This document shows positions 1,666 to 19,856 of a stretch of DNA of 23,001 nt, piece after piece (within the stretch, counting starts at the first letter, position 1; the number at the start of each line of letters is the position of its first letter). The notes under the pieces were generated by a model, which worked only from the letters and a program-made list of their open reading frames with translations, was not told where the DNA came from and searched no databases. The stretch lies in the IMG/VR virus record IMGVR_UViG_3300027859_000081, positions 1 to 23,001 of that record; one strand, written 5' to 3'. A program made the translations under genes and the position numbers. The DNA comes from a virus.

Positions 1666-2205
1666 ATGAGTCAAATTAAAGTAGATAGTATAGTTCCAAG
1701 AAGTGGACTTTCTGGTGGTGCCAGTGGTGGTATCATACAATCAGTACACGAGTTTAGTACTACGAAGATTGAGACGAGTTCAGATGCTGATATTATTTCA
1801 GCAACTATTACTCCATCATCTTCATCAAGTAAAATTTTATTCATGTACACTGGTAACGTAGCTCAGGAAAGCACTGAAGGACGGGAATGGGGATTCATAG
1901 CGTATAGAGGTTCAACTCAAATTCGCCTTGGAAGGGATGAAAATAGCAACAGTAGAGCAACATTCCAAGCTTTTGGTACTGACAACCGTGCTGCTGCGAG
2001 CAACTTCAATGGAACATATCAAATAACTGGTATTTTAGTTGATGAACCAAACACCACTTCATCAATAACTTATAAACTTGCTATAGAACAATTTTATACA
2101 AGTAGTACTGCACCAGTTAAGATTGGGGAATCTGGATGGGGTGGAACGGGAATTGAACAGGTAACTAATGGTTACTCTTTGACACTAATGGAGATTTCAG
2201 GATGA
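1666..2205 (+). CDS. Putative fibre-associated structural protein
   Basis: This is a 179-residue protein. ATG 1666 follows a GGAG site (1655-1658). The start MSQIKVDSIVPRSGLSGG shares the MS-x-IKV-x-x-I/L pattern with the two preceding proteins, suggesting a common docking segment. The rest is Ser/Thr-rich and beta-prone (SATITPSSSSSKILFMYTGN, ITYKLAIEQFYTSS, NGYSLTLMEISG). The layout of small beta strands and a closing LTLMEIS strand is like single-domain jelly-roll proteins recalled from marine phage fibre loci. It lacks the AKAW domain. Its stop overlaps the next ATG (ATGA), so it is translationally coupled to the chaperone-like gene. Specific function unknown. Confidence 0.7.
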   Translation: MSQIKVDSIVPRSGLSGGASGGIIQSVHEFSTTKIETSSDADIISATITPSSSSSKILFMYTGNVAQESTEGREWGFIAYRGSTQIRLGRDENSNSRATFQAFGTDNRAAASNFNGTYQITGILVDEPNTTSSITYKLAIEQFYTSSTAPVKIGESGWGGTGIEQVTNGYSLTLMEISG

Positions 2206-2555
2206 TTGGAAAAGCACTTCAAAACTTAAGACCAGGATCAAAATGGACTATTCGTGGGGGTTATTATGGTGGGATAGAGTGGAAAGATACAGAACAAACA
2301 AAACCAACAGAAGAAGAAGTAAATTCGGAAATAGCAAGACTTCAATCAGAAGAACCAATGAAAAGGTTGAGAGATTATAGAAATAAACTGTTGGCAGAAA
2401 GTGATTGGATGGCAAACTCTGATGTAACAATGTCTGATGCATGGAAAACATATCGTCAGGCACTTAGAGACCTTCCAAGCACTGCTACACCAGTGTTAGA
2501 TAACACCTCAAAACCAGGTATTTCGGGAGTTACCTGGCCAACAAAACCTTCTTGA
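2202..2555 (+). CDS. Tail fibre assembly chaperone-like protein (Phage_tail_APC type)
   Basis: This is a 117-residue protein. The C-terminal half has the hallmark sequence of phage tail assembly chaperones: RLRDYRNKLLAESDWMANSD (about residues 55-74), then W-x-x-YRQALRDLPS and a final GVTWPTKPS. Proteins of this family (Pfam Phage_tail_APC, from memory) sit directly behind the fibre gene they serve and help it fold or trimerise. The N-terminal part (LRPGSKWTIRGGYYGGIEWK) is less familiar. ATG 2202 overlaps the preceding TGA by one base pair step, pointing to coupling with the structural protein at 1666-2205, its most likely client. The large fibre at 2614 lies just downstream under its own late promoter and is an alternative client. 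Confidence 0.85.
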   Translation: MIGKALQNLRPGSKWTIRGGYYGGIEWKDTEQTKPTEEEVNSEIARLQSEEPMKRLRDYRNKLLAESDWMANSDVTMSDAWKTYRQALRDLPSTATPVLDNTSKPGISGVTWPTKPS

Positions 2556-2587
2556 CGGTCTGATGCTGATGTGATTTGATTTGATTT

Positions 2588-2595
2588 AATAAATA
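2588..2595 (+). promoter_or_regulatory. T4-type late promoter motif AATAAATA
   Basis: The octamer AATAAATA lies in a 58-base gap, 18 bases before ATG 2614 of the large collagen-like fibre. It differs from the consensus only in the first base. Confidence 0.6.
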
Positions 2596-2613
2596 CTCAA
2601 AAAAGTGTAGATA

Positions 2614-5427
2614 ATGGCAGCACTAAATTTTCCTGCGAACCCTAGCAATGGTGACACTTACTCAGCAAATGGGTTAACTTTTACATTTAATGGCACTGCC
2701 TGGACAAGAGGTAGTGATCCTGGTGCACAAGGACATCAAGGTGTTCAAGGTGCACAAGGTCATCAGGGTGTTCAGGGTGCTACAGGTGCAAATTCAAGTG
2801 TAGCAGGTCCTACTGGACCACAGGGCAATCAAGGCGTACAGGGTGCCCAAGGTGTTCAGGGTGCCACAGGTGCTGGTGGTTCAACAGGTTCCACAGGTCC
2901 ACAGGGCAATCAAGGCGTACAGGGTGCTCAAGGTGTTCAGGGTGCTTCAGGTTCCGGTGGTTCAACGGGTTCAACAGGACCTCAGGGTTATCAAGGCGTA
3001 CAAGGTGCTGATGGAAACTTCGGTGGTGCCACTTTTGATTATACATTTAGCACTACAACAACAGATTCTGATCCTGGACAAGGAAACTTAAGATTCAATA
3101 ATGGCACACTGTCCTCTGCGACAGAAATGTATATTGATGATGAAGATGATGGCGGTAATGATATCCAAGCATTCTTAAGAACAATTGACGATTCAACGTC
3201 AACAGTCAAAGGTCACGTTAGAGTATCTAATAGACTCAACGCAGCAGACTTTGCTCTATTCACAATTAGTGGTACAAACACAGAAGCATCTGGTTATCAT
3301 AAGGTAAGTGTATCTTATGTTTCTGGTGCAACTTCATTTAGTAATAGTGAAGATATTATTGTAACTTTTGCCAGAACTGGAACAAAAGGCGACACTGGTT
3401 CTGCTGGACCTCAAGGTAATCAGGGTGTCCAGGGTGCTGGTGGACCAACGGGTTCTACCGGTCCCACAGGACCACAAGGAAACCAAGGTGTTCAAGGTGC
3501 TCAAGGACATCAAGGTGTTCAAGGCGCTACTGGTTCCACTGGACCTACAGGACCTAACACGATTGACGATTTTATAACTCATAATGGAGATACAGACACC
3601 AAATTTGGATTTGCTGCTGCTGATACATTTACAGTAGAGACTGGTGGTGATGAAGCACTTCGTATAGATTCAAGTGGTCGTGTAGTAATTGGTACTGACA
3701 CTGCACGAACCGATTTCTTTTCAGGTACTTTGTCTGCCAACGTACAGGTAGAAGGTAGTTCTTATGCGGCTTATTCTTGCTACGCAACTAATGGCAACGG
3801 TGCGTTTATTTTTGGACGTGATAATGGATCTAGCGGTTCGACTATCGGAAACCTGAGTTGGCAGGCAGACGACGGAACAGATGAAGTCGAAGCTGCAAGA
3901 ATTTCCGCGCAAATAGATGGCACTCCTGGATCAAATGATATGCCGGGGCGTCTATTGTTCTTCACTACTGCCGATGGAGCATCATCACCAACAGAAAGAC
4001 TTCGTATAAGTTCTGCTGGTAATGTTGCTATCGGAACTGATGCATATGGTAACGTTGACCCTCTAGCACCACTTCATGTTTCCAGTTATTCTCCAACAAC
4101 AGCAATCACAGACCATGGTACTTTAAGAGCTGCTGCAACACTATTGTTGCAGACATCAAATAATGTTAATGACTCTAGATCTGGTGTAATGTTTAGTGGA
4201 GCACTCCACTCAACAGATGGATGTAGTGCTGGTATCATAGCAAATCATGAAAATGTATCGGAAAATAGTGAGTCCACATCTTTAAGTTTTTATACTTCAC
4301 ATAATGAAAGTCTGGGAGAAAGACTTCGTATAACTTCTGGTGGTGGTCATAGGATAAAATGTAATGAAAGTTGGACTGCAGCAAATCTATCAGAACTTAA
4401 TAGTGATAAATTAGCACTTAATATTAATCAAACAAGACAGGGGCAAACAAAAGCAATTGCATTTGGTGCTATTGGTGCTTCTGGTGGTTCTACTGGTATT
4501 CAGTGTTATGATACATCTGATAACAGTGCTAATCCCTTATTAATAAATCCATTTGGTGGTAATGTTGGTATCAATATTACTACTCCTGAAAGACCATTGC
4601 ACATCGTTGGTAATGATGGTGCTACTGGTGCAACACTAGGTAATAGTGATACCACACTAGTACTTGATAATTCTGGTGGTAATGGTGCAATGATTGAGTT
4701 CCTTGCTTCTAATACTGGACAGGGACATATCATGTTCACTGATACTGATGGAACCAATAGAGGTAGAATTTCATATAATCATACTAGTGATTATTTTAGA
4801 ATTGATACTGCTGGTACAGAAAGACTTCGTATAACTTCTGCTGGTAGAGTGCATGTTACTGCTGGTGATTTTAGAGTTACTGATAATAACTCTGGATTGC
4901 TGTTCCAAGAAAGTAATAATGGAGCATTCCTTTGGTTAGATGGTGCTAATGGCGATTTCGTTGGTGGTGATTATTATGGTATTGCTGCAAACAATAGTGC
5001 TCAGTTGCAATTTGGATATGCTGGTTCTGCACATATGGTACTTGATAGCAGTGGTAATCTCACCGTAAACGGCACTTTAACTGCAAATAGTTTTAGTGGT
5101 TCTTTAACATCTGATAATACTGCTAAAGCATGGGTCAACTTCAATGGCTCTGGAACAGTTTCTATCCGTGACGACTTTAATGTAAATACTATTAGTGATC
5201 AAGGCACTGGAAAATATTTTGTTAATTTTTCTAATAGTCTGTCTAATGGTAATTATGCTGCTGCTTTGGGAATATCAGGAGCAAATGGATATGTAATGTC
5301 CAATTCTCTTAAAGATGGATATGGTCGTGGTGGAACCATGGATTCATCTGGGTTTAATATTTGGACAAACAACGACTCCAACCACTCCGGTGATGAAAGT
5401 GTAGTCACTGCTGTTGTCTTTGATTAA
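2614..5427 (+). CDS. Large collagen-like tail fibre protein
   Basis: This is a 937-residue protein. Residues 1-32 ([19 protein letters not shown]... and TFNGTAW) form an N-terminal cap common in cyanophage fibres. Residues 37-134 and about 256-315 are Gly-X-Y collagen repeats ([18 protein letters not shown]), interrupted by a beta-rich globular segment. The middle carries recurrent short motifs ([68 protein letters not shown]), typical of repeated beta-structured fibre shafts. Residues 837-937 are the [20 protein letters not shown] tip domain also found alone at 887-1270 and 1277-1663. It most likely forms a trimeric fibre for host recognition. The late promoter at 2588-2595 fits late expression. 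No S74 self-cleavage domain is present, so folding may depend on the small chaperone-like neighbours. Confidence 0.9.
2722..3015 (+). repeat. Collagen-like Gly-X-Y coding repeat, first block of the 937-residue fibre
   Basis: About 98 residues of mostly G-X-Y triplets lie here. A longer unit encoding [17 protein letters not shown] occurs twice with nearly the same DNA (around 2818-2865 and 2899-2946). One interruption ([10 protein letters not shown]) breaks the register. Confidence 0.85.
3379..3558 (+). repeat. Collagen-like Gly-X-Y coding repeat, second block of the 937-residue fibre
   Basis: Sixty codons starting [13 protein letters not shown] and ending GPTGPN. Unlike the first block it begins with a charged GTKGDTG triplet pair, frequent at the start of bacterial and phage collagen-like domains. 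Confidence 0.85.
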
Positions 5428-5993: not shown

Positions 5994-6647
5994 ATGAATC
6001 ATAATGCAGTAGGTGTATTCGCACAACCGATAACAAGAATAAAGTGTGATATAGAGGGAGTGTGTGAATTTTTTGACAGTGTAATTAAACGTAAAGATGA
6101 TTCTGTTACAAATAAACTTCTTGGTGGTGGCAGTCCACAATTGAGACATTATCATAATTGTAATAATGTTTTCAACATATATTCAGAGTTGAAAAACTTG
6201 CATGATCAAGTTTTAGAGAAATCAAACTTTGTCTATAGAAAAGTGATGAATTATGAAAGTGATGTTTTTATCACAAACGCTTGGTTTAATGAGTGTCAGA
6301 TTGGTGGTTCTCAAGACCTTCATAGTCACTGTAATTCTATGTTGTGTGGAACTCTTTATTTAAGAACTGATGAAAATACTGAGATTTTATTTAGTAGTCC
6401 ATTTGGCACAAGTAAAATTGCTCCCAATTTGTCTGATAAGGCATCTGGTCAACCAAATGAATTTGGATATAACTATCATCAAACTAAAATTTATATAAAT
6501 CCAAAACAAGGCGACTGTTTGTTTTGGCCAAGTTTTCTAAGTCATGGATACTTTTCTAATCAAACACCAAACAGATTATCTCTAAGTTTTAATTTGATGC
6601 CGGTGTCATTTAACTCACTTTACAAACCACACCATGTAAGTCGTTAG
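5994..6647 (+). CDS. Putative 2OG-Fe(II) oxygenase (2OG-FeII_Oxy_5-like)
   Basis: This is a 217-residue protein. The C-terminal half fits the double-stranded beta-helix of 2-oxoglutarate/Fe(II) dioxygenases of the type often found in cyanophages: QDLHSHCNSMLCGTLYLR (H110, H112), then GDCLFWPSFLSHGYF (H184) and NRLSLSFN (R194, the likely 2-oxoglutarate-binding Arg). In this family the first metal motif is often written H-x-H or H-x-x-x-N rather than the classical HxD, so activity is plausible but not certain. The substrate is unknown. No clear Shine-Dalgarno precedes ATG 5994, which starts seven bases after the fibre-partner gene, so it is probably read from the same transcript. It is one of four such oxygenase-like genes in the window. 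Confidence 0.75.
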   Translation: MNHNAVGVFAQPITRIKCDIEGVCEFFDSVIKRKDDSVTNKLLGGGSPQLRHYHNCNNVFNIYSELKNLHDQVLEKSNFVYRKVMNYESDVFITNAWFNECQIGGSQDLHSHCNSMLCGTLYLRTDENTEILFSSPFGTSKIAPNLSDKASGQPNEFGYNYHQTKIYINPKQGDCLFWPSFLSHGYFSNQTPNRLSLSFNLMPVSFNSLYKPHHVSR

Positions 6648-6711: not shown

Positions 6712-6909
6712 ATGAACGCCGAAACTTTTGTTGAGAATGTCGTTATTGACATTTGTAGCAGGTCTTTCATCGTCACTAGTGACAAAAATGACAAACGTAT
6801 GGTAGAATGTGATAGTGCAGAAGAGTTTATGAATCTTCTTGAGGTTTGCACTGCTCTCCTAGAGGAAGATCAAATTCTATATACAGAACCAGTTACTATG
6901 GAAAGTTGA
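6712..6909 (+). CDS. Small protein of unknown function upstream of the antitoxin-like gene
   Basis: This is a 65-residue acidic protein (MNAETFVENVVIDICSRSFI... and AEEFMNLLEVCTALLEEDQI). I use ATG 6712 because the in-frame TTG at 6658 lies inside the sigma70 -35 box and would not be transcribed. The beginning looks beta-stranded (VVIDICSRSFIVTSD) and the end helical. I do not recognise a family with known function, though I believe similar proteins are frequent in T4-like cyanophages. Its TGA overlaps the ATG of the Phd/YefM-like gene (TGATG), so the two are coupled. The gene order resembles a two-gene toxin-antitoxin unit, but nothing in this acidic sequence looks like a known toxin. Confidence 0.75.
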   Translation: MNAETFVENVVIDICSRSFIVTSDKNDKRMVECDSAEEFMNLLEVCTALLEEDQILYTEPVTMES

Positions 6910-7082
6910 TGGAAGTATTTACTATTCAAGAATGGGAAAAGAATTTTGATGAACTCTTCAAGAGAGTAGAAGACGGAGAAACAATAGGTATAATCAAAGA
7001 AGATGGACAGGCAGCAGTAATGATGCCTGCCGATGATGAAATTATACGAATATACACAGAGCAAAATAACGAAGCTCAGTAA
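6909..7082 (+). CDS. Phd/YefM-like antitoxin-type protein, without obvious toxin
   Basis: This is a 57-residue protein read from ATG 6909, which overlaps the preceding stop. The sequence FTIQEWEKNFDELFKRVEDG, then ETIGIIKEDGQAAVMMPADD, follows the Phd/YefM antitoxin pattern (a short N-terminal strand, a helix with NF-x-EL-x-x-RV-x-x-GE, then a strand pair with a turn and the V-x-x-P motif). Phd/YefM proteins dimerise, bind operator DNA by this N-terminal fold and neutralise Doc, YoeB or related toxins with a C-terminal tail. Here the tail is short (about 15 residues), and no RelE-, Doc- or PIN-type gene is adjacent. It could act against a host toxin or have kept only the DNA-binding role. It is transcribed with the tRNA cluster from 6658-6686. 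Confidence 0.7.
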   Translation: MEVFTIQEWEKNFDELFKRVEDGETIGIIKEDGQAAVMMPADDEIIRIYTEQNNEAQ

Positions 7083-7093
7083 TTTCATCATCT

Positions 7094-7165
7094 GGGACTA
7101 TCGCATATTGGTTAATGCCCACTGCTTATAACGGTGTGAACCGGGTTCAATTCCCGGTAGTCCTA
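7094..7165 (+). tRNA. tRNA-Ile (anticodon UAU)
   Basis: The cloverleaf is complete. The acceptor is GGGACTA with TAGTCCT (one G-U pair); the D stem is GCAT/ATGC with a GG in the loop; the anticodon stem is CACTG/CGGTG with loop CTTATAA; the T arm is CCGGG-TTCAATT-CCCGG; the discriminator is A. The anticodon TAT (7127-7129) reads AUA (Ile). No CCA is encoded. A direct AUA-reading tRNA is uncommon in bacteria, which normally use a lysidine-modified CAU tRNA. Confidence 0.88.
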
Positions 7166-7167
7166 TC

Positions 7168-7239
7168 AGTGTAGATGTGATGTAAGGAAACACGCCTCTT
7201 TGGAGAGTATTGCAGGTATCAAACCCTGTCATCTACACT
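7168..7239 (+). ncRNA. Cloverleaf-like structured RNA between tRNA genes (degenerate tRNA or tRNA mimic)
   Basis: A nine-pair closing stem, AGTGTAGAT (7168-7176) with ATCTACACT (7231-7239), encloses three hairpins in tRNA order. They are GTG/CAC (7177-7179/7191-7193) with a GG-containing 11-base loop; CTCT/AGAG (7196-7199/7204-7207) with a loop of only four bases; and GCAGG/CCTGT (7212-7216/7225-7229) with an 8-base loop, TATCAAAC, that resembles a T loop with one extra base. There is no seven-base anticodon loop and no U8/A9 linker, so I cannot assign an amino acid. It could be a decayed tRNA, a tRNA needing an unusual fold, or a small RNA released by the tRNA processing enzymes. The perfect closing stem argues against mere junk. 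Confidence 0.6.
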
Positions 7240-7243
7240 ATCT

Positions 7244-7316
7244 GCTTCCTTAGCAATCTGGTGAATGCAGCAAACTCATAATTTGCCTAAGGTGAGTTCG
7301 ATCCTCACAGGAAGCA
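7244..7316 (+). tRNA. tRNA with CAU anticodon (elongator Met or Ile2)
   Basis: The acceptor is GCTTCCT/AGGAAGC; the D stem is GCA/TGC; the anticodon stem is GCAAA/TTTGC with loop CTCATAA; the T arm is GTGAG-TTCGATC-CTCAC; the discriminator is A. The anticodon CAT is at 7277-7279. The G1-C72 pair excludes an initiator tRNA. Met versus lysidine-modified Ile2 cannot be settled by eye; the presence of a separate Ile(UAU) tRNA makes Met somewhat more likely. The 3' bases after the discriminator are CCT, so a full CCA is not encoded. Confidence 0.88.
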
Positions 7317-7320
7317 CCTT

Positions 7321-7405
7321 GCGAGTATGGCGGAATCGGTAGACGCACCAGACTTAAAATCTGTTGAGCATCATGCTCGTGGGAGTTCAAGTCTCCCTAC
7401 TCGCA
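7321..7405 (+). tRNA. tRNA-Leu (anticodon UAA)
   Basis: The acceptor is GCGAGTA/TACTCGC. The D arm contains the typical GGCGGAATCGGTAGACGC. The anticodon loop CTTAAAA has TAA at 7355-7357. A long variable arm (TTGAGCATCATGCTCG) marks a class II tRNA. The T arm is GGGAG-TTCAAGT-CTCCC, and the discriminator is A. It reads UUA, a codon rare in GC-rich marine Synechococcus but common in this phage DNA. No CCA is encoded. Confidence 0.95.
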
Positions 7406-7408
7406 TAA

Positions 7409-15059: not shown

Positions 15060-16085
15060 ATGACACTACAATCTACGGGTCAAATTACTTTTTCCAATAT
15101 TACTAATGAGTTTGGAACTCCTAGTAACAGTAATTTAGGAGCTTTTCGTGTATCTGAAAATCATGGATCTCTTTCAAATATTCCTTTAGATAGTAATATC
15201 CCTCAGACGGGTGAGATAAAATTTAGTGATTTTTACGGTAGAAGATTGAATGTAGTAGTTGATTGCCATTCTGGTTCTGTAGAAGAGAGAGGAAATGCTA
15301 AATCAAAATATAATGGCAATCAGGTTAGTGTTGTTGGAGGTTTTAGGTCTCATCCAAGTCCTCCAACTGGAATTAAAGTGATTATAAATGTTAATAAATC
15401 ATTTAAATCCGAAAAAGGTAAAGCAAAAAATGTAGTTGCACTAAGAACTGGAGAATATGGTTCTGATTGTTTATTAAGGGTTGATGTTGGATCTGAAGGT
15501 TATATCGGTGGTGCTGGTGGTAATGGTGGTAGAGGTGGTAATAGGGGTAGTAATAGTGGTTCAGGCGGAGAAGATGGAAATAGTGGATTAGGTATTGACC
15601 ACGAATCTTCTGATGGAACCACTGTAATTAACAACAGTGGAACAATTTCTGCCGGATTTGGTGGAGGTGGAGGTGGCGGCGCTGCATATCAGTTCGATGA
15701 AGGAGGGAAAGGTAAGTCTGATAAAAGAAGAAATGCCTCAGGAGGTGGCGGTGGCGGTGGTGCCGGTTTCCCAGCAGGTAGTGGTGGATCTGGTGGTTCA
15801 TCCGAAAAGAGTGGTGGTAATGGTAGTAGTGGTGGATTGAATTCTGCGGGGGGAGGTGGTGAGGGTGGTAATAATGATGGTGAAGCAAGAGGCGGTACTG
15901 GAGGAACTGGTGGAAGTAATGGTGAAGGAGCTAATTCGGGTGGAGGAGGATCAGGAGAAGAAACAGGTAGCGGTGGATCAGGAGGAGGAGATGGTGCTGC
16001 TATAAGAAAAGCAAGTGGTGTCTCAATATCAGTAGTAAATAACGGAACAATTAGGGGATCTACGAGTGCTACAGGGGTGGGATAA
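15060..16085 (+). CDS. Glycine-rich tail tip/adhesin-like protein
   Basis: This is a 341-residue protein. Residues 1-60 (GQITFSNITNEFGT, then GEIKFSDFYGRR) match the I-x-FSDI...I-x-x-SDFYG signature often seen at the start of phage tip proteins. After a beta-rich part, residues about 150-310 are extremely glycine-rich, with runs such as FGGGGGGGAA and ASGGGGGGGAG and many GGSGG units. The final 30 residues (VSISVVNNGTIRGSTSATG) echo an earlier NNSGTISAGFGGG block. Glycine-rich stretches of this sort form polyglycine-II bundles in the gp38 adhesins of T-even-like phages, so a receptor-binding tip is a good hypothesis, but the overall sequence is not gp38. It is followed at its stop codon by the late promoter of the oxygenase operon. 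Confidence 0.8.
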   Translation: MTLQSTGQITFSNITNEFGTPSNSNLGAFRVSENHGSLSNIPLDSNIPQTGEIKFSDFYGRRLNVVVDCHSGSVEERGNAKSKYNGNQVSVVGGFRSHPSPPTGIKVIINVNKSFKSEKGKAKNVVALRTGEYGSDCLLRVDVGSEGYIGGAGGNGGRGGNRGSNSGSGGEDGNSGLGIDHESSDGTTVINNSGTISAGFGGGGGGGAAYQFDEGGKGKSDKRRNASGGGGGGGAGFPAGSGGSGGSSEKSGGNGSSGGLNSAGGGGEGGNNDGEARGGTGGTGGSNGEGANSGGGGSGEETGSGGSGGGDGAAIRKASGVSISVVNNGTIRGSTSATGVG

Positions 16086-16088
16086 ATA
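16081..16088 (+). promoter_or_regulatory. T4-type late promoter motif GATAAATA
   Basis: GATAAATA includes the TAA stop (16083-16085) of the adhesin gene and sits 19 bases before ATG 16108. It puts the oxygenase operon under late control, like the fibres. Confidence 0.7.
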
Positions 16089-16107: not shown

Positions 16108-16686
16108 ATGGCATCTGAGTTTGATTTGATACGAAGGTATCGTGGTGCTTTTTCAAAAGAAGAGTGTAAGGAGATAATAAATTATATTGAATTTTTTGAA
16201 AATAATCACATTTTAACTTATGATAGAGGTAGTCTGCATAAAGAAGACCATAAGACAATAAATGTCACGCACGACTATAACTTTGTAGCATCAAATAAAT
16301 TATCCACAATGATATTTCCAGGATTCAAACCCTGTTTAGAGGAATATCTGGAAACTTTTAGTATTTTGGGAAACAGAAAATTTCTTTTACATGATCTGAA
16401 ACTGAAAAAAATACCTCCGGGTGGAGGATTTCATGCATGGCATTATGAAAATGGTGCTTTATCTGTAGCACCAAGACAATTTGTCGTTCAACTATATTTG
16501 AATGATGACTTTGAGGGTGGTGAGACAGAATTTTTATATCAACAGAGAAGAGAAGAATCAATAGCAGGAGATGTTATTATGTTCCCTGCTTCATTTACAC
16601 ATACTCATAGAGGAAATCCTCCTTTAGGAGGAACAAAATACATAGCAACATCATGGGGAGTCATACAAGATGAAGGTAATATTTAA
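16108..16686 (+). CDS. 2OG-Fe(II) oxygenase, prolyl 4-hydroxylase-like
   Basis: This is a 192-residue protein. The catalytic core is visible: FHAWHYENG gives a likely H112-x-E114 metal pair (an HxE variant of HxD), then FVVQLYLNDDFEGGETEF, AGDVIMFPASFTHTHRG (distal His, probably H167) and GGTKYIATSWG with K177 as the probable 2-oxoglutarate ligand. Enzymes of this fold hydroxylate protein or small-molecule substrates using O2, Fe(II) and 2-oxoglutarate. The substrate here is unknown. It is the first gene of a five-gene operon behind a late promoter and overlaps the next gene by 17 bases. It is shorter than animal prolyl hydroxylases and has no signal peptide, so it should act in the cytoplasm of the infected cell. 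Confidence 0.85.
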   Translation: MASEFDLIRRYRGAFSKEECKEIINYIEFFENNHILTYDRGSLHKEDHKTINVTHDYNFVASNKLSTMIFPGFKPCLEEYLETFSILGNRKFLLHDLKLKKIPPGGGFHAWHYENGALSVAPRQFVVQLYLNDDFEGGETEFLYQQRREESIAGDVIMFPASFTHTHRGNPPLGGTKYIATSWGVIQDEGNI

Positions 16687-17020
16687 AATAGTTGAATATT
16701 ATCCTGATGAAAATAGGATTGAAGTAAAATTTTGCGATGAAAAGTCAACCATTCCAATTGACAATTACAAAGCATATTCAATAAATTGTGATTACTTAGA
16801 TATGACTGATTCAGATTTTTTCTCAGACTCTCTAGTCAAAAATCATGGATTGAATATTATTGAGCAACAAATAAATAAACGAACAATAAATCCATCTAAT
16901 ATTTCAAAATCTATTTCTGATGATGAATTCAACTTGGAAGATCTGGTAGGTAAAGTTATAGAGGGCAAGTATTTTTCCAGACCCAAATATCCTATTAAAA
17001 TGAAGAGGATTGAATTATGA
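16670..17020 (+). CDS. Unknown 116-residue protein in the oxygenase operon
   Basis: ATG 16670 follows GGGGAG (16655-16660) inside the end of the oxygenase gene. The protein starts with a beta-type stretch (MKVIFKIVEYYPDENRIEVK) and a following YKAYSINCDYLDMTDSDFF; the end is basic (KYFSRPKYPIKMKRIEL). I do not recognise the family. The N-terminal half has the look of a small ligand- or enzyme-binding beta domain. Its overlap with genes on both sides (17 bases upstream, 4 bases downstream) shows it is translated with the hydroxylases and may be a partner of them. Confidence 0.75.
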   Translation: MKVIFKIVEYYPDENRIEVKFCDEKSTIPIDNYKAYSINCDYLDMTDSDFFSDSLVKNHGLNIIEQQINKRTINPSNISKSISDDEFNLEDLVGKVIEGKYFSRPKYPIKMKRIEL

Positions 17021-17487
17021 AATACTTTAAGAGATGTGAGGAGTTTTACATTTGTGGATCAAAAGATAAAAAAAGAGAAATTTTTGCAGAATCAAAAGAA
17101 AATTCTATAACTCTATTTCAAATCATAGTTAAAGGAAAAGGAAGACTGATTACAACTTTTGATTCAACATCGATTGATGGTAGTAGGGGAGATATTATGA
17201 ATTGTAAGTCTATGATGGGTAAAGATAGAGTTCTTGTATCAGATAAAGATAGCGAAGAGTATTATGAAGTTTATGGATTTAATTCTCTAGATCCGTCAGA
17301 AGATTGGGATGCTAAAAAAATTACATCTTCCTTTAGAGGAGACAGTAATAGTTGGATTATATGTTTTGATGGTAGTGCAACTATAAATGGAAAGGTAGTC
17401 GAAAAATTTGATTATGCAAAATTAGAAGATAAAGATTATGAAGTTGTAATTGGCAATGCCTTACTGGGAGTATTCACAAAACTATGA
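17017..17487 (+). CDS. Unknown beta-rich protein, possibly cupin-like
   Basis: This is a 156-residue protein, ATG overlapping the preceding stop. The end, SNSWIICFDGSATINGKVVE followed by FDYAKLEDKDYEVVIGNALL and GVFTKL, has the alternating strand pattern of a cupin second half (a strand with WII-x-x-x-G, a loop, then a strand ending in a control-type phrase). A second strand-rich unit lies in residues 25-60. No metal-binding HxH-type motif is present, so it would be a non-catalytic cupin if it is one. It may bind a ligand or partner with the oxygenases around it. The assignment is by eye and weak. Confidence 0.7.
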   Translation: MKYFKRCEEFYICGSKDKKREIFAESKENSITLFQIIVKGKGRLITTFDSTSIDGSRGDIMNCKSMMGKDRVLVSDKDSEEYYEVYGFNSLDPSEDWDAKKITSSFRGDSNSWIICFDGSATINGKVVEKFDYAKLEDKDYEVVIGNALLGVFTKL

Positions 17488-17948
17488 TTACTAAACAAGA
17501 TCTAAACTCATTATATGAATGGGCAAGAGATACTGAGTTTCCATTAAGGAATGAACGTATCACATCAAAATATATGGGATATGGTCTCAAAATATGTTGG
17601 ATAAAATTACATAATCTTTATCCAAATAAAGAACTATCTAAACCTGTGATTCACATCATAAAAAATAAAGATATTCTTGGTGTTTACTTTTTAAGTTATC
17701 CACCAAATATGACTGCTCGTCCACATAGAGATTACAATCCACATCGTCAACCATATAAAAGGATTCAGATACCCACAAAGGTTGAAGATGGTTATATTGA
17801 ATGGACTGCTACTGGTGAGAAAGTTTACTGGAAGGAAGGTAGATCAGAAATTTTTAATGTGGAACAAGAACATCAGGGTGCTAATAATTCTAACACAACC
17901 ATGGAATTTTTATATGTTGACGTAAAATTTGATATAGAGGTTGAATGA
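17484..17948 (+). CDS. Aspartyl/asparaginyl beta-hydroxylase-like 2OG-Fe(II) protein
   Basis: This is a 154-residue protein. Motifs are PHRDYNPH (H81-x-D83, the iron pair), KRIQIPTK (R93), then IEWTATGEKVYWKEGRSEIF and EQEHQGANNS with the distal H130. This order (HRD, R-x-x-IP, a W/Y-rich strand, H-x-x-x-NNS) is that of the Asp/Asn beta-hydroxylase family (Asp_Arg_Hydrox, from memory). Enzymes of that family add a hydroxyl to Asp or Asn residues or to free amino acids. The substrate is unknown. It overlaps both neighbours by four bases, so it is stoichiometrically linked to the other oxygenases. Confidence 0.8.
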   Translation: MITKQDLNSLYEWARDTEFPLRNERITSKYMGYGLKICWIKLHNLYPNKELSKPVIHIIKNKDILGVYFLSYPPNMTARPHRDYNPHRQPYKRIQIPTKVEDGYIEWTATGEKVYWKEGRSEIFNVEQEHQGANNSNTTMEFLYVDVKFDIEVE

Positions 17949-18565
17949 TGGAAAATATTGAAGCTGAGGTATTTTATGAACCATTCCCGCATGTAATCTT
18001 TCATAATTTTTATAACAAAGATGAACTAGATTTAATTTGGCAAGAACTAGATTTTTATACTAGACCTGGAAAATTTCTAGAAGCGAAGGATTATGGTGGA
18101 GTAGTTGATAAAACTAATTCGCATGCGTTGCTACTAGATGACATTTATTCAGATGAACATAGAAAATTATCAAACATTCTAACTGTAACCAGAAAAGTGT
18201 TTGATAGTTCTGTTTTGGATGTATTTTCCGAACTACATGATTGCTGCTCTATTGCTAGATATTCTAATTGGGACTGCACCAAAGTCAGATATTATCATAA
18301 TGGTGAATACTATGAACCACACATTGATAAATCCATGCAATTTTTAGCATTTTCATACTTTTACAAAGAACCGAAAGTGTTTAATGGTGGTGAATTGATC
18401 TTCCCAAAATACAATTACAGTTTTGGTTGTCATAACAATTCTTTAATCATGATGCCTGGTTGGGTAGAACATGGTGTGAATAAAGTGTCAATAGAAGACT
18501 CTGATTACTTTGAAGGGCATGGTAGATATTCTATCACATCTTTCTTTGGAAGCAAGCACACTTGA
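17945..18565 (+). CDS. 2OG-Fe(II) oxygenase, prolyl hydroxylase-like (HxD type)
   Basis: This is a 206-residue protein with a textbook core: YYEPHIDKSMQFLAFSYFY (H126-x-D128), then GGELIFPKYN, NNSLIMMPGWVEHGVNKV (distal H176) and GRYSITSFFG (R194, 2-oxoglutarate binding). It is the clearest catalytically complete oxygenase of the window. The start could be either ATG of the tandem pair (17945 or 17948). The N-terminal EPFPHVIFHNFYNKDEL resembles the start of many phage and bacterial prolyl 4-hydroxylase-like proteins. It is the last gene of the operon, and its stop overlaps the -35 box of the following early-type promoter. The substrate is unknown. Confidence 0.87.
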   Translation: MMENIEAEVFYEPFPHVIFHNFYNKDELDLIWQELDFYTRPGKFLEAKDYGGVVDKTNSHALLLDDIYSDEHRKLSNILTVTRKVFDSSVLDVFSELHDCCSIARYSNWDCTKVRYYHNGEYYEPHIDKSMQFLAFSYFYKEPKVFNGGELIFPKYNYSFGCHNNSLIMMPGWVEHGVNKVSIEDSDYFEGHGRYSITSFFGSKHT

Positions 18566-18686: not shown

Positions 18687-19856
18687 ATGACTGTCACCCT
18701 TCGTCCTCACCAAAGCAAAGCATTAGATGCCATGCGACAGCATGACAAAGGTCAGGTCATCATCCCTACTGGTGGTGGCAAGACTATGTGCATGATTGAA
18801 GATGCCCGTATTGATCTTCTTCATGGCAGAACTATTGTTGTAGTTGCTCCTCGTATTCTGCTGGCAGAACAACTTTGTAAAGAGTTCCTTGAAGTGTTGT
18901 CAGATACTTACACTCACATTATGCACGTTCATAGTGGTGATGTTGAGTATTTTCACACTACCAATCCTGAGAAAATTCACTTGTTTGCTAATGTTGCTCG
19001 CACGGCAGGTGAAAATTGCATCATCTTCACCACATATCATTCTCTGCATCGTATCAAAGAAGCAGATATTGAGGTGAATACCATTTACTTTGATGAGGCA
19101 CACAATAGTGTGCAACGTAACTTCTTCCCTGCTACAGAACATTTCTCTCACGATGCTGATCGTTGCTACTTTTTTACTGCTACTCCTAAGCATTCTCTTA
19201 CCATCTTCAAACCAGGAATGAATGATGCTGAGGTTTATGGTCAGGTAATTTGTAGTGTTCCTGCACCTAAACTGGTTGAGGAAGGTTATATTCTTCCTCC
19301 AAAGGTTGTGGTTCAGGAATTACCTCAGGGTGATTTCAAGCAGTCTGATGAGAGAAACCTTTTGGATATTATTGATGCAAACTCGCTCAATAAGATTCTG
19401 ATTGCTGCACGTTCTACCAAACAGATTGTGCGTCTTGTTTCACAGTCCGACTTCTGCTATGAGTTGCAACAACGTGGATACAACTGGATGTATATCACTA
19501 GCAAGACTGGTGCTATCATTAACGGTAAGAAAGTGTCCCGTGAAGAGTTCTTCAAAACTCTGAACCAGTGGGGCACTGATGACACTCGTTTTGTTGTCAT
19601 GCACCATAGTATCCTTTCTGAAGGTATCAACGTCAAGGGACTGGAAGCAGTTCTGTTTATGCGTAACATGGACTACATCGGTATCAGTCAGTCTATTGGA
19701 CGTGTGATCCGCTTAGGAAACCGTCACAAGACCTTTGGCTTGGTTTGTGTGCCTGTCTATGATAAAGTGGGCATAGGCACCGCCAGGTCCGTTCAGACAG
19801 TGGTAGACACTGTATTTGAACAGGGTCAACCCGCCATTTCTACTATCCGTCGCTAA
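18687..19856 (+). CDS. SF2 DEAH-box helicase (ResIII/UvsW-like)
   Basis: This is a 389-residue helicase. Motifs in order: LRPHQ (5-9, Q-type), IPTGGGKT (26-33, Walker A), VVVAPRILLAEQ (51-62, Ia), FDEAH (135-139, Walker B), FFTATP (162-167, III), SEGINVKGL (311-319, V) and QSIGRVIRLG (335-344, VI). This makes it an ATP-driven DNA or RNA helicase or translocase of superfamily 2. It starts almost at the Q motif and lacks the N-terminal domain of T4 UvsW (about 500 residues), so I do not name it uvsW; it may be a second, compact phage helicase. Base composition is visibly richer in GC than its neighbours. It has its own sigma70-type promoters and stands at the boundary between late and early-type genes. 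Confidence 0.9.
   Translation: MTVTLRPHQSKALDAMRQHDKGQVIIPTGGGKTMCMIEDARIDLLHGRTIVVVAPRILLAEQLCKEFLEVLSDTYTHIMHVHSGDVEYFHTTNPEKIHLFANVARTAGENCIIFTTYHSLHRIKEADIEVNTIYFDEAHNSVQRNFFPATEHFSHDADRCYFFTATPKHSLTIFKPGMNDAEVYGQVICSVPAPKLVEEGYILPPKVVVQELPQGDFKQSDERNLLDIIDANSLNKILIAARSTKQIVRLVSQSDFCYELQQRGYNWMYITSKTGAIINGKKVSREEFFKTLNQWGTDDTRFVVMHHSILSEGINVKGLEAVLFMRNMDYIGISQSIGRVIRLGNRHKTFGLVCVPVYDKVGIGTARSVQTVVDTVFEQGQPAISTIRR

Follow-up and report, generated by a model that had tools for sequence, protein, structure and literature searches.

A five-gene unit between a fibre-tip gene and a helicase gene

The window analysed here is a 23,001-base viral fragment from IMG/VR that is cyanomyovirus-like, and Synechococcus phages match its helicase region at 70-76% DNA identity. 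Between a gene for a glycine-rich, tail-fibre tip-like protein (TIP), which adjoins fibre genes, and the helicase gene lie five open reading frames, encoding three oxygenases (OX1, ASPH and OX2) and two proteins of new families (U1 and U2). The features of the locus are listed below.

15060..16085, + strand: TIP, tail-fibre tip-like protein of 341 aa, rich in glycine (28% Gly); matches phrog_11439 (tail fibre, 5e-6); constant oxygenase neighbour
16081..16088, + strand: late-promoter motif GATAAATA (cyanophage consensus NATAAATA); shares bases with the stop codon of TIP
16108..16686, + strand: OX1, 2OG-Fe(II) oxygenase (PF13640; H112/E114/H167)
16670..17020, + strand: U1, new small family whose predicted fold has one long helix and three beta strands; U2 always follows immediately
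17017..17487, + strand: U2, new family with a double-cupin (HutD/pirin-like) fold; metal ligands not conserved
17150..17700, + strand: approximate recombination tract at the U2/ASPH border (identity drop against L002, the nearest relative)
17484..17948, + strand: ASPH, Asp/Asn-hydroxylase-type oxygenase (PF05118; H81/D83/H130, R93)
17945..18565, + strand: OX2, 2OG-Fe(II) oxygenase (PF13640; H126/D128/H176/R194)
18687..19856, + strand: helicase, downstream bound of the cassette, after a 121 bp gap from OX2

An earlier, sequence-only reading of this DNA had described the genes starting at 16108, 16670, 17017, 17484 and 17945 as overlapping one another in series, and we found all five in this arrangement, with overlaps of 17, 4, 4 and 4 bases, the last three of which are ATGA. 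One relative that carries U1 and U2 also has psbA- and psbD-type genes, and a psbA-type gene is present in the single-cell marine virus MH319720, which has relatives of U1 and U2; cyanobacterial hosts are therefore likely. Elsewhere in the window, a tail-assembly chaperone (PF16778) and a collagen-repeat fibre (PF01391, 1.4e-16) at 2202-5427, together with another 2OG oxygenase (PF13759) at 5994-6647, form a second fibre-oxygenase neighbourhood. A Phd/YefM-like antitoxin (PF02604, 7e-6, below the curated cut-off) lies at 6846-7082 with no recognised toxin adjoining, and three tRNA genes (Ile-tat, Met and Leu-taa) at 7093-7406 are located between small genes and a long fibre gene.

The unit was also said to follow a late motif. 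The motif GATAAATA at 16081-16088 sits 27 nt before the OX1 start, and NATAAATA is the reported cyanophage late motif (PMC2984593). ATAAATA shows no excess over chance in the window (9 copies seen, 6.4 expected), and all nine copies are on the + strand. For eight of the nine, including the OX1 copy, a gene begins 9-60 nt downstream (binomial P 6e-9), and a late motif ahead of the operon is borne out. No strong sigma-70 match was found just before OX1 in the window. Across loci, the late motif precedes only 9 of 70 OX1 genes, compared with the fibre gene G13200 in 38 of 50 loci, and was found before none of the 46 helicase genes examined. This distribution makes read-through from the fibre block the likelier general rule.

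Properties of the oxygenases, U1 and U2

Pfam searches assigned OX1 (E-value 1.3e-8) and OX2 (6.6e-6) to PF13640, and ASPH (1.4e-5) to PF05118. Against the PF13640 cut-off of 27 bits, OX1 scored 36.2 and OX2 27.4, a bare pass, while ASPH scored 25.5 bits against the curated PF05118 cut-off of 22.6. Metal ligands are kept in at least 90% of relatives of OX1 (H112/[DE]114/H167) and of OX2 (H126/D128/H176/R194); the conserved columns listed from the OX1 alignment include the metal triad, and a basic 2OG-binding residue is not among them. In the 32 aligned ASPH sequences, H81 and H130 are invariant, D83 is found in 29 and R93 in 31, and no conserved basic residue follows H130, indicating that 2OG anchoring in ASPH either differs or is unrecognised. 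Hence, the proposal that three of the genes encode 2OG-Fe(II)/Asp-hydroxylase-like proteins with motifs H112/E114, H81/D83 and H126/D128 is supported both by the Pfam matches and by conservation of the motifs across relatives. The median dN/dS was 0.15 for OX1, 0.25 for U1, 0.15 for U2, 0.22 for ASPH and 0.13 for OX2, with a value of 0.37 for the tip, and purifying selection on the five genes (0.13-0.25) implies that they are maintained.

Two of these families extend beyond the tip. Relatives of OX2 sit in the tip cassette and also in a PhoH-nuclease-OX2-gp59-gp32 operon, and we therefore rejected a strictly tip-specific OX2; in their weakly supported tree, OX2 relatives seem to have changed context several times. 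One such conserved replication operon (L017:7077-9235 and relatives) carries the OX2-family oxygenase between a PD-(D/E)XK nuclease and gp59, near gp32. With OX1 as bait, fibre genes were near in only 42 of 80 loci. The cassette's oxygenases also matched phrog_274 and phrog_2297, annotated as 'DNA endonuclease (V)', whose members (for example, L116:4935-5456 and L108:7231-7740) match PF13640 above the cut-off. The families appear to be oxygenases, and the 'endonuclease V' label on these phage families is likely to be a propagated annotation error.

Searches of Pfam, PHROGs and PDB sequences gave nothing credible for U1 or U2. Among 50,697 phage records, relatives were found only in MH319720, and both proteins are absent from cultured phages; many relatives are present in IMG/VR, and a scan of bacterial and archaeal genomes found none of U2. 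U1 and U2 thus represent two new protein families, with no earlier report found in the open-access literature, which leaves most subscription journals outside its scope.

The AlphaFold2 model of U2 is a double-cupin barrel (pLDDT 93.6, pTM 0.87), in agreement with the earlier description of the 17017 product as beta-rich and perhaps cupin-like. Fold matches included HutD (TM 0.62, E 4.5e-4) and pirin-like proteins; identity to these double cupins is ∼8-12%, and the likeness is one of predicted fold only. Proteins of P-HM1 and P-HM2 share a similar predicted fold. The top PDB matches of U2, cyclic-nucleotide kinases, were rejected as global mis-superpositions (rmsd 13-15 Å, TM ∼0.35). No histidine is conserved in 42 U2 sequences and the metal motifs of enzymatic cupins are not seen, and U2 is therefore unlikely to be a metal enzyme. 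The U1 model (pLDDT 84, pTM 0.61) found no convincing relative in a fold search, in keeping with the earlier description of a protein of unknown fold; its best viral matches, uncharacterised phage proteins (E 3e-3, TM ∼0.4), were set aside.

Conservation and modularity of the tip-linked cassette

We used U1 and U2 as bait to collect 60 non-redundant IMG/VR contigs. The two genes are adjacent in all 60, with a 4-base overlap in 59, and an oxygenase is near them in 59. Where the stretch upstream was visible, a glycine-rich tip lay at most five genes upstream in 51 of 52 contigs. Junctions inside the unit overlap in 266 of 282 cases. Between the tip and the helicase, these contigs carry from none to seven recognised oxygenases per locus, and oxygenases make up 187 of the 280 genes of at least 100 aa there, compared with 20 of 63 in the remainder of these loci. 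A long common form reads tip-OX1-2OG-2OG-U1-U2-ASPH-2OG-2OG, and the shorter form of the window tip-OX1-U1-U2-ASPH-OX2-helicase. The expectation that the five-gene order would be conserved in related phages did not hold, as the exact order was seen only in the nearest relative, L002, and the unit is modular. In some loci the slot also contains a tryptophan halogenase (PF04820, 2e-80), sulfotransferases, a SAM methyltransferase or TauD, and DNA methylase and restriction-like cargo occurs mostly towards the helicase. The flavin-dependent halogenase comes right after U1-U2 and is encoded on the other strand (L065:6452-7972, - strand; also in L068 and L069).

We then used the first 156 residues of the tip as bait and kept the best 80 of 117 matches, which covers the nearer tips and gave 77 usable loci. 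In this set of the best 80 of 117 matches, an oxygenase lies within five genes downstream of the tip in 77 of 77 loci and is the very next gene in 70 (53 on the same strand and 17 convergent), and U1/U2 are present in only 38. When tips were thinned to at most 90% similarity, 60 loci were left, in which the neighbour of the tip is OX1, OXc8, OX2, U1 or a fibre gene, and oxygenases occur on either strand. These counts indicate that the tip with an oxygenase is the constant, and U1-U2-ASPH an optional insert. An obligatory partnership of U1/U2 with the oxygenases was rejected, as 39 of the 77 tip loci (best 80 of 117 matches) have oxygenases without U1/U2, and MH319720 has U1-U2 without an adjacent oxygenase. 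Tip distances correlate with OX1 distances at r 0.88, compared with 0.50 for the helicase; physical linkage explains this value, and we did not use it as proof of co-evolution.

Units of the form OX1-OX2-OX1 are convergent with the tip gene in L219, L220, L226-L230, L233, L235, L241, L242 and L244-L246; in those checked, their stop codons overlap that of the tip by ∼4 bases, and several lie behind perfect sigma-70 consensus promoters. A perfect TTGACA/TATAAT promoter was found just upstream in 9 of 17 convergent oxygenase units examined, compared with 5 of 2080 random stretches, which suggests that these units may be expressed early. This predicted early expression weakens the timing argument of the sequence-only reading, which had seen a compact late unit behind a glycine-rich tip gene and had suggested a role in virion maturation. 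Compactness stands, the tip link is conserved far beyond the window and the window has a plausible late promoter, but the motif precedes only 9 of 70 OX1 genes. The step from late expression to virion maturation is weak, given the convergent sigma-70 units and the OX2 relatives in replication operons, although the link to the tip itself is strong.

Comparison of the window with L002 in steps of 150 bases showed 93-100% identity from 13 to 20 kb, except at ∼17.15-17.7 kb, where identity falls to 81-85%. This local drop marks a recombination tract over U2 and ASPH. Phages with tips only ∼44% identical carry U2 and ASPH alleles that are 74-88% identical, which disfavours tight tip specificity of U2 and ASPH. 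Purifying selection acts on the cassette, whose parts are exchanged through recombination, and the data show its linkage to the tip, its conservation and its intact catalytic residues.

Among cultured phages, S-CAM1, S-CAM4 and S-MbCM7 have the order short tail fibre, OX1-type gene, tail-assembly chaperone, oxygenase(s). The chaperone is phrog_4697 in S-CAM1 and S-MbCM7, while the S-CAM4 counterpart, annotated 'hypothetical', was taken from the annotation. As in the window, the genes lie behind a tail-fibre gene with the OX1-type gene first and a partner gene flanked by oxygenases, and in S-MbCM7 a helicase follows. Unlike the window, these phages have a chaperone instead of U1-U2 and a fibre that is not a glycine-rich tip, and no ASPH was found in them. 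In S-RIM2 and P-RSM1 a fibre gene and two small ORFs precede OX1, in S-SCSM1 oxygenases follow the fibres, and S-SKS1 has fibres and helicase without an oxygenase between them. Counter-examples are P-SSM4, ACG-2014d and ACG-2014f, in which OX1-type genes lie near uvsY, psbA and uvsX. The asparaginyl beta-hydroxylase of P-HM1, P-HM2 and MED4-213 (T4-GC 546) is of the PF05118 type like ASPH (31-32% identity over 95%); in P-HM2, unlike in the window, it lies in a region of metabolic and hypothetical genes and not behind fibre genes. A PDB sequence search with TIP found no match to the solved structures of the T-even adhesin gp38, a polyglycine-II sandwich, and the excerpts of the gp38 literature at hand do not mention oxygenases alongside gp38.

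Possible substrates of the cassette

We interpret the five genes as one variant of a modular, tip-linked cassette for side-chain modification, a reading to which we assign a probability of roughly 45%. Late in infection, side chains of freshly made tip proteins, or of fibre proteins next to them, would be hydroxylated by OX1, ASPH and OX2 with 2-oxoglutarate, O2 and Fe(II). Relatives whose slot contains a sulfotransferase, halogenase or methyltransferase would attach additional groups. A role in holding, folding or presenting the tip, like that of an assembly chaperone or a scaffold, is probable for U1 and U2, since an annotated tail-assembly chaperone occupies the same place between the oxygenases in cultured phages. 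The effect would be to tune tip stability or receptor binding. Modification of the tip or fibre fits best because of the linkage to the tip, which inversion does not break, the chaperone-like position of the partner genes in cultured phages and the other side-chain-modifying enzymes. We know of no fibre-tip operon in Paramecium bursaria Chlorella virus 1 (PBCV-1), a eukaryotic algal virus that likewise has a 2OG oxygenase. As described in PMC9301287, which cites Eriksson 1999, this prolyl 4-hydroxylase has viral protein substrates, and to the extent of that description it provides a precedent. Tip modification is opposed by the convergent oxygenases in 17 of 77 tip loci from the best 80 of 117 matches, by the perfect sigma-70 promoter in 9 of 17 convergent units examined and by the OX2 relatives in replication operons. 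Only 42 of the 80 loci collected with OX1 have fibre genes close by, and in some cultured phages OX1 relatives are neighbours of uvsY, uvsX or psbA. Restriction and methylase cargo, also inserted before the helicase, counts against it too.

Such cargo could mean that the junction at which late fibre genes give way to the early helicase block is an insertion hot-spot that gathers mobile genes, the oxygenases being of assorted function unrelated to the tip. The variety of the cargo, with DNA methylases and restriction-like genes sharing the junction, the 550-bp recombination tract and the absence of an oxygenase between the fibres and helicase of S-SKS1 agree with this. However, the positions closest to the tip are almost always taken by oxygenases or U1-U2, which are coupled by overlapping starts, and restriction-type cargo is mostly distal. 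An oxygenase accompanies the tip in 77 of 77 loci (best 80 of 117 matches) and the linkage persists through inversion of the unit, and we consider a hot-spot unlikely. Enzymes that alter the host surface molecule bound by the linked tip, thereby preventing superinfection or loss of progeny on debris, would also have to travel with the tip, and the linkage is kept even where the unit is convergent and probably expressed early. Parallels exist: sulfotransferases and methyltransferases are able to decorate surface molecules, LpxO, which hydroxylates lipid A, is a PF05118 member, and phage T5 has a gene for receptor blocking next to that for its receptor-binding protein. Yet in the window a late motif precedes the unit, and immediately ahead of OX1 there is no strong match to sigma-70. 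The sequences of these small enzymes give no sign of a membrane anchor, and U1/U2 with their chaperone-like position fit fibre assembly better. We regard modification of the cognate receptor as quite improbable.

A role in DNA repair or 2OG metabolism has been proposed for cyanophage oxygenases (PMC2984593, PMC3037559, PMC9146016); their targets would then be DNA, nucleotides or pools of 2-oxoglutarate. In the window 121 bp lie between the unit and the helicase, the helicase lacks a late motif, and the Pfam assignments are to the Asp/Asn hydroxylase family (ASPH) and PF13640 (OX1 and OX2) and not to an AlkB family. The nine 2OG-Fe(II) oxygenase copies of S-SZBM1 are scattered and not tied to repair genes (PMC9146016). 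Against these points stand the OX2 relatives between PhoH/nuclease and gp59/gp32 and the OX1 relatives near uvsX and uvsY, and we regard this role as quite improbable for the cassette.

Returning to tip modification, a stronger form of it may be put forward tentatively and is, in our estimate, rather doubtful: a swappable enzyme cassette would travel with the phage adhesin and decorate it post-translationally with hydroxyl and, in relatives, sulfate, halogen or methyl groups, U1-U2 being dedicated tip-presenting partners. The oxygenase families are already known. Within the open-access literature, which omits most subscription journals, we found no report of a tip-linked multi-oxygenase cassette or of U1/U2, and no paper in it linked phage oxygenases to tail-fibre modification in cyanophages.

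Few unexplained genes are as numerous in T4-like cyanophages as those for 2OG-Fe(II) oxygenases, which the reports consulted treat as DNA-repair or metabolic genes. The near-invariant link of one lineage's glycine-rich tip to oxygenases, inverted arrangements included, points to a substrate related to adsorption. The cassette, carried by uncultured ocean cyanophages, hints at chemical modification of the part of the virion that touches the host, which would give these common oxygenases a testable job. If the swappable-cassette reading is true, the phage would vary the surface that binds its receptor through chemistry in addition to sequence.
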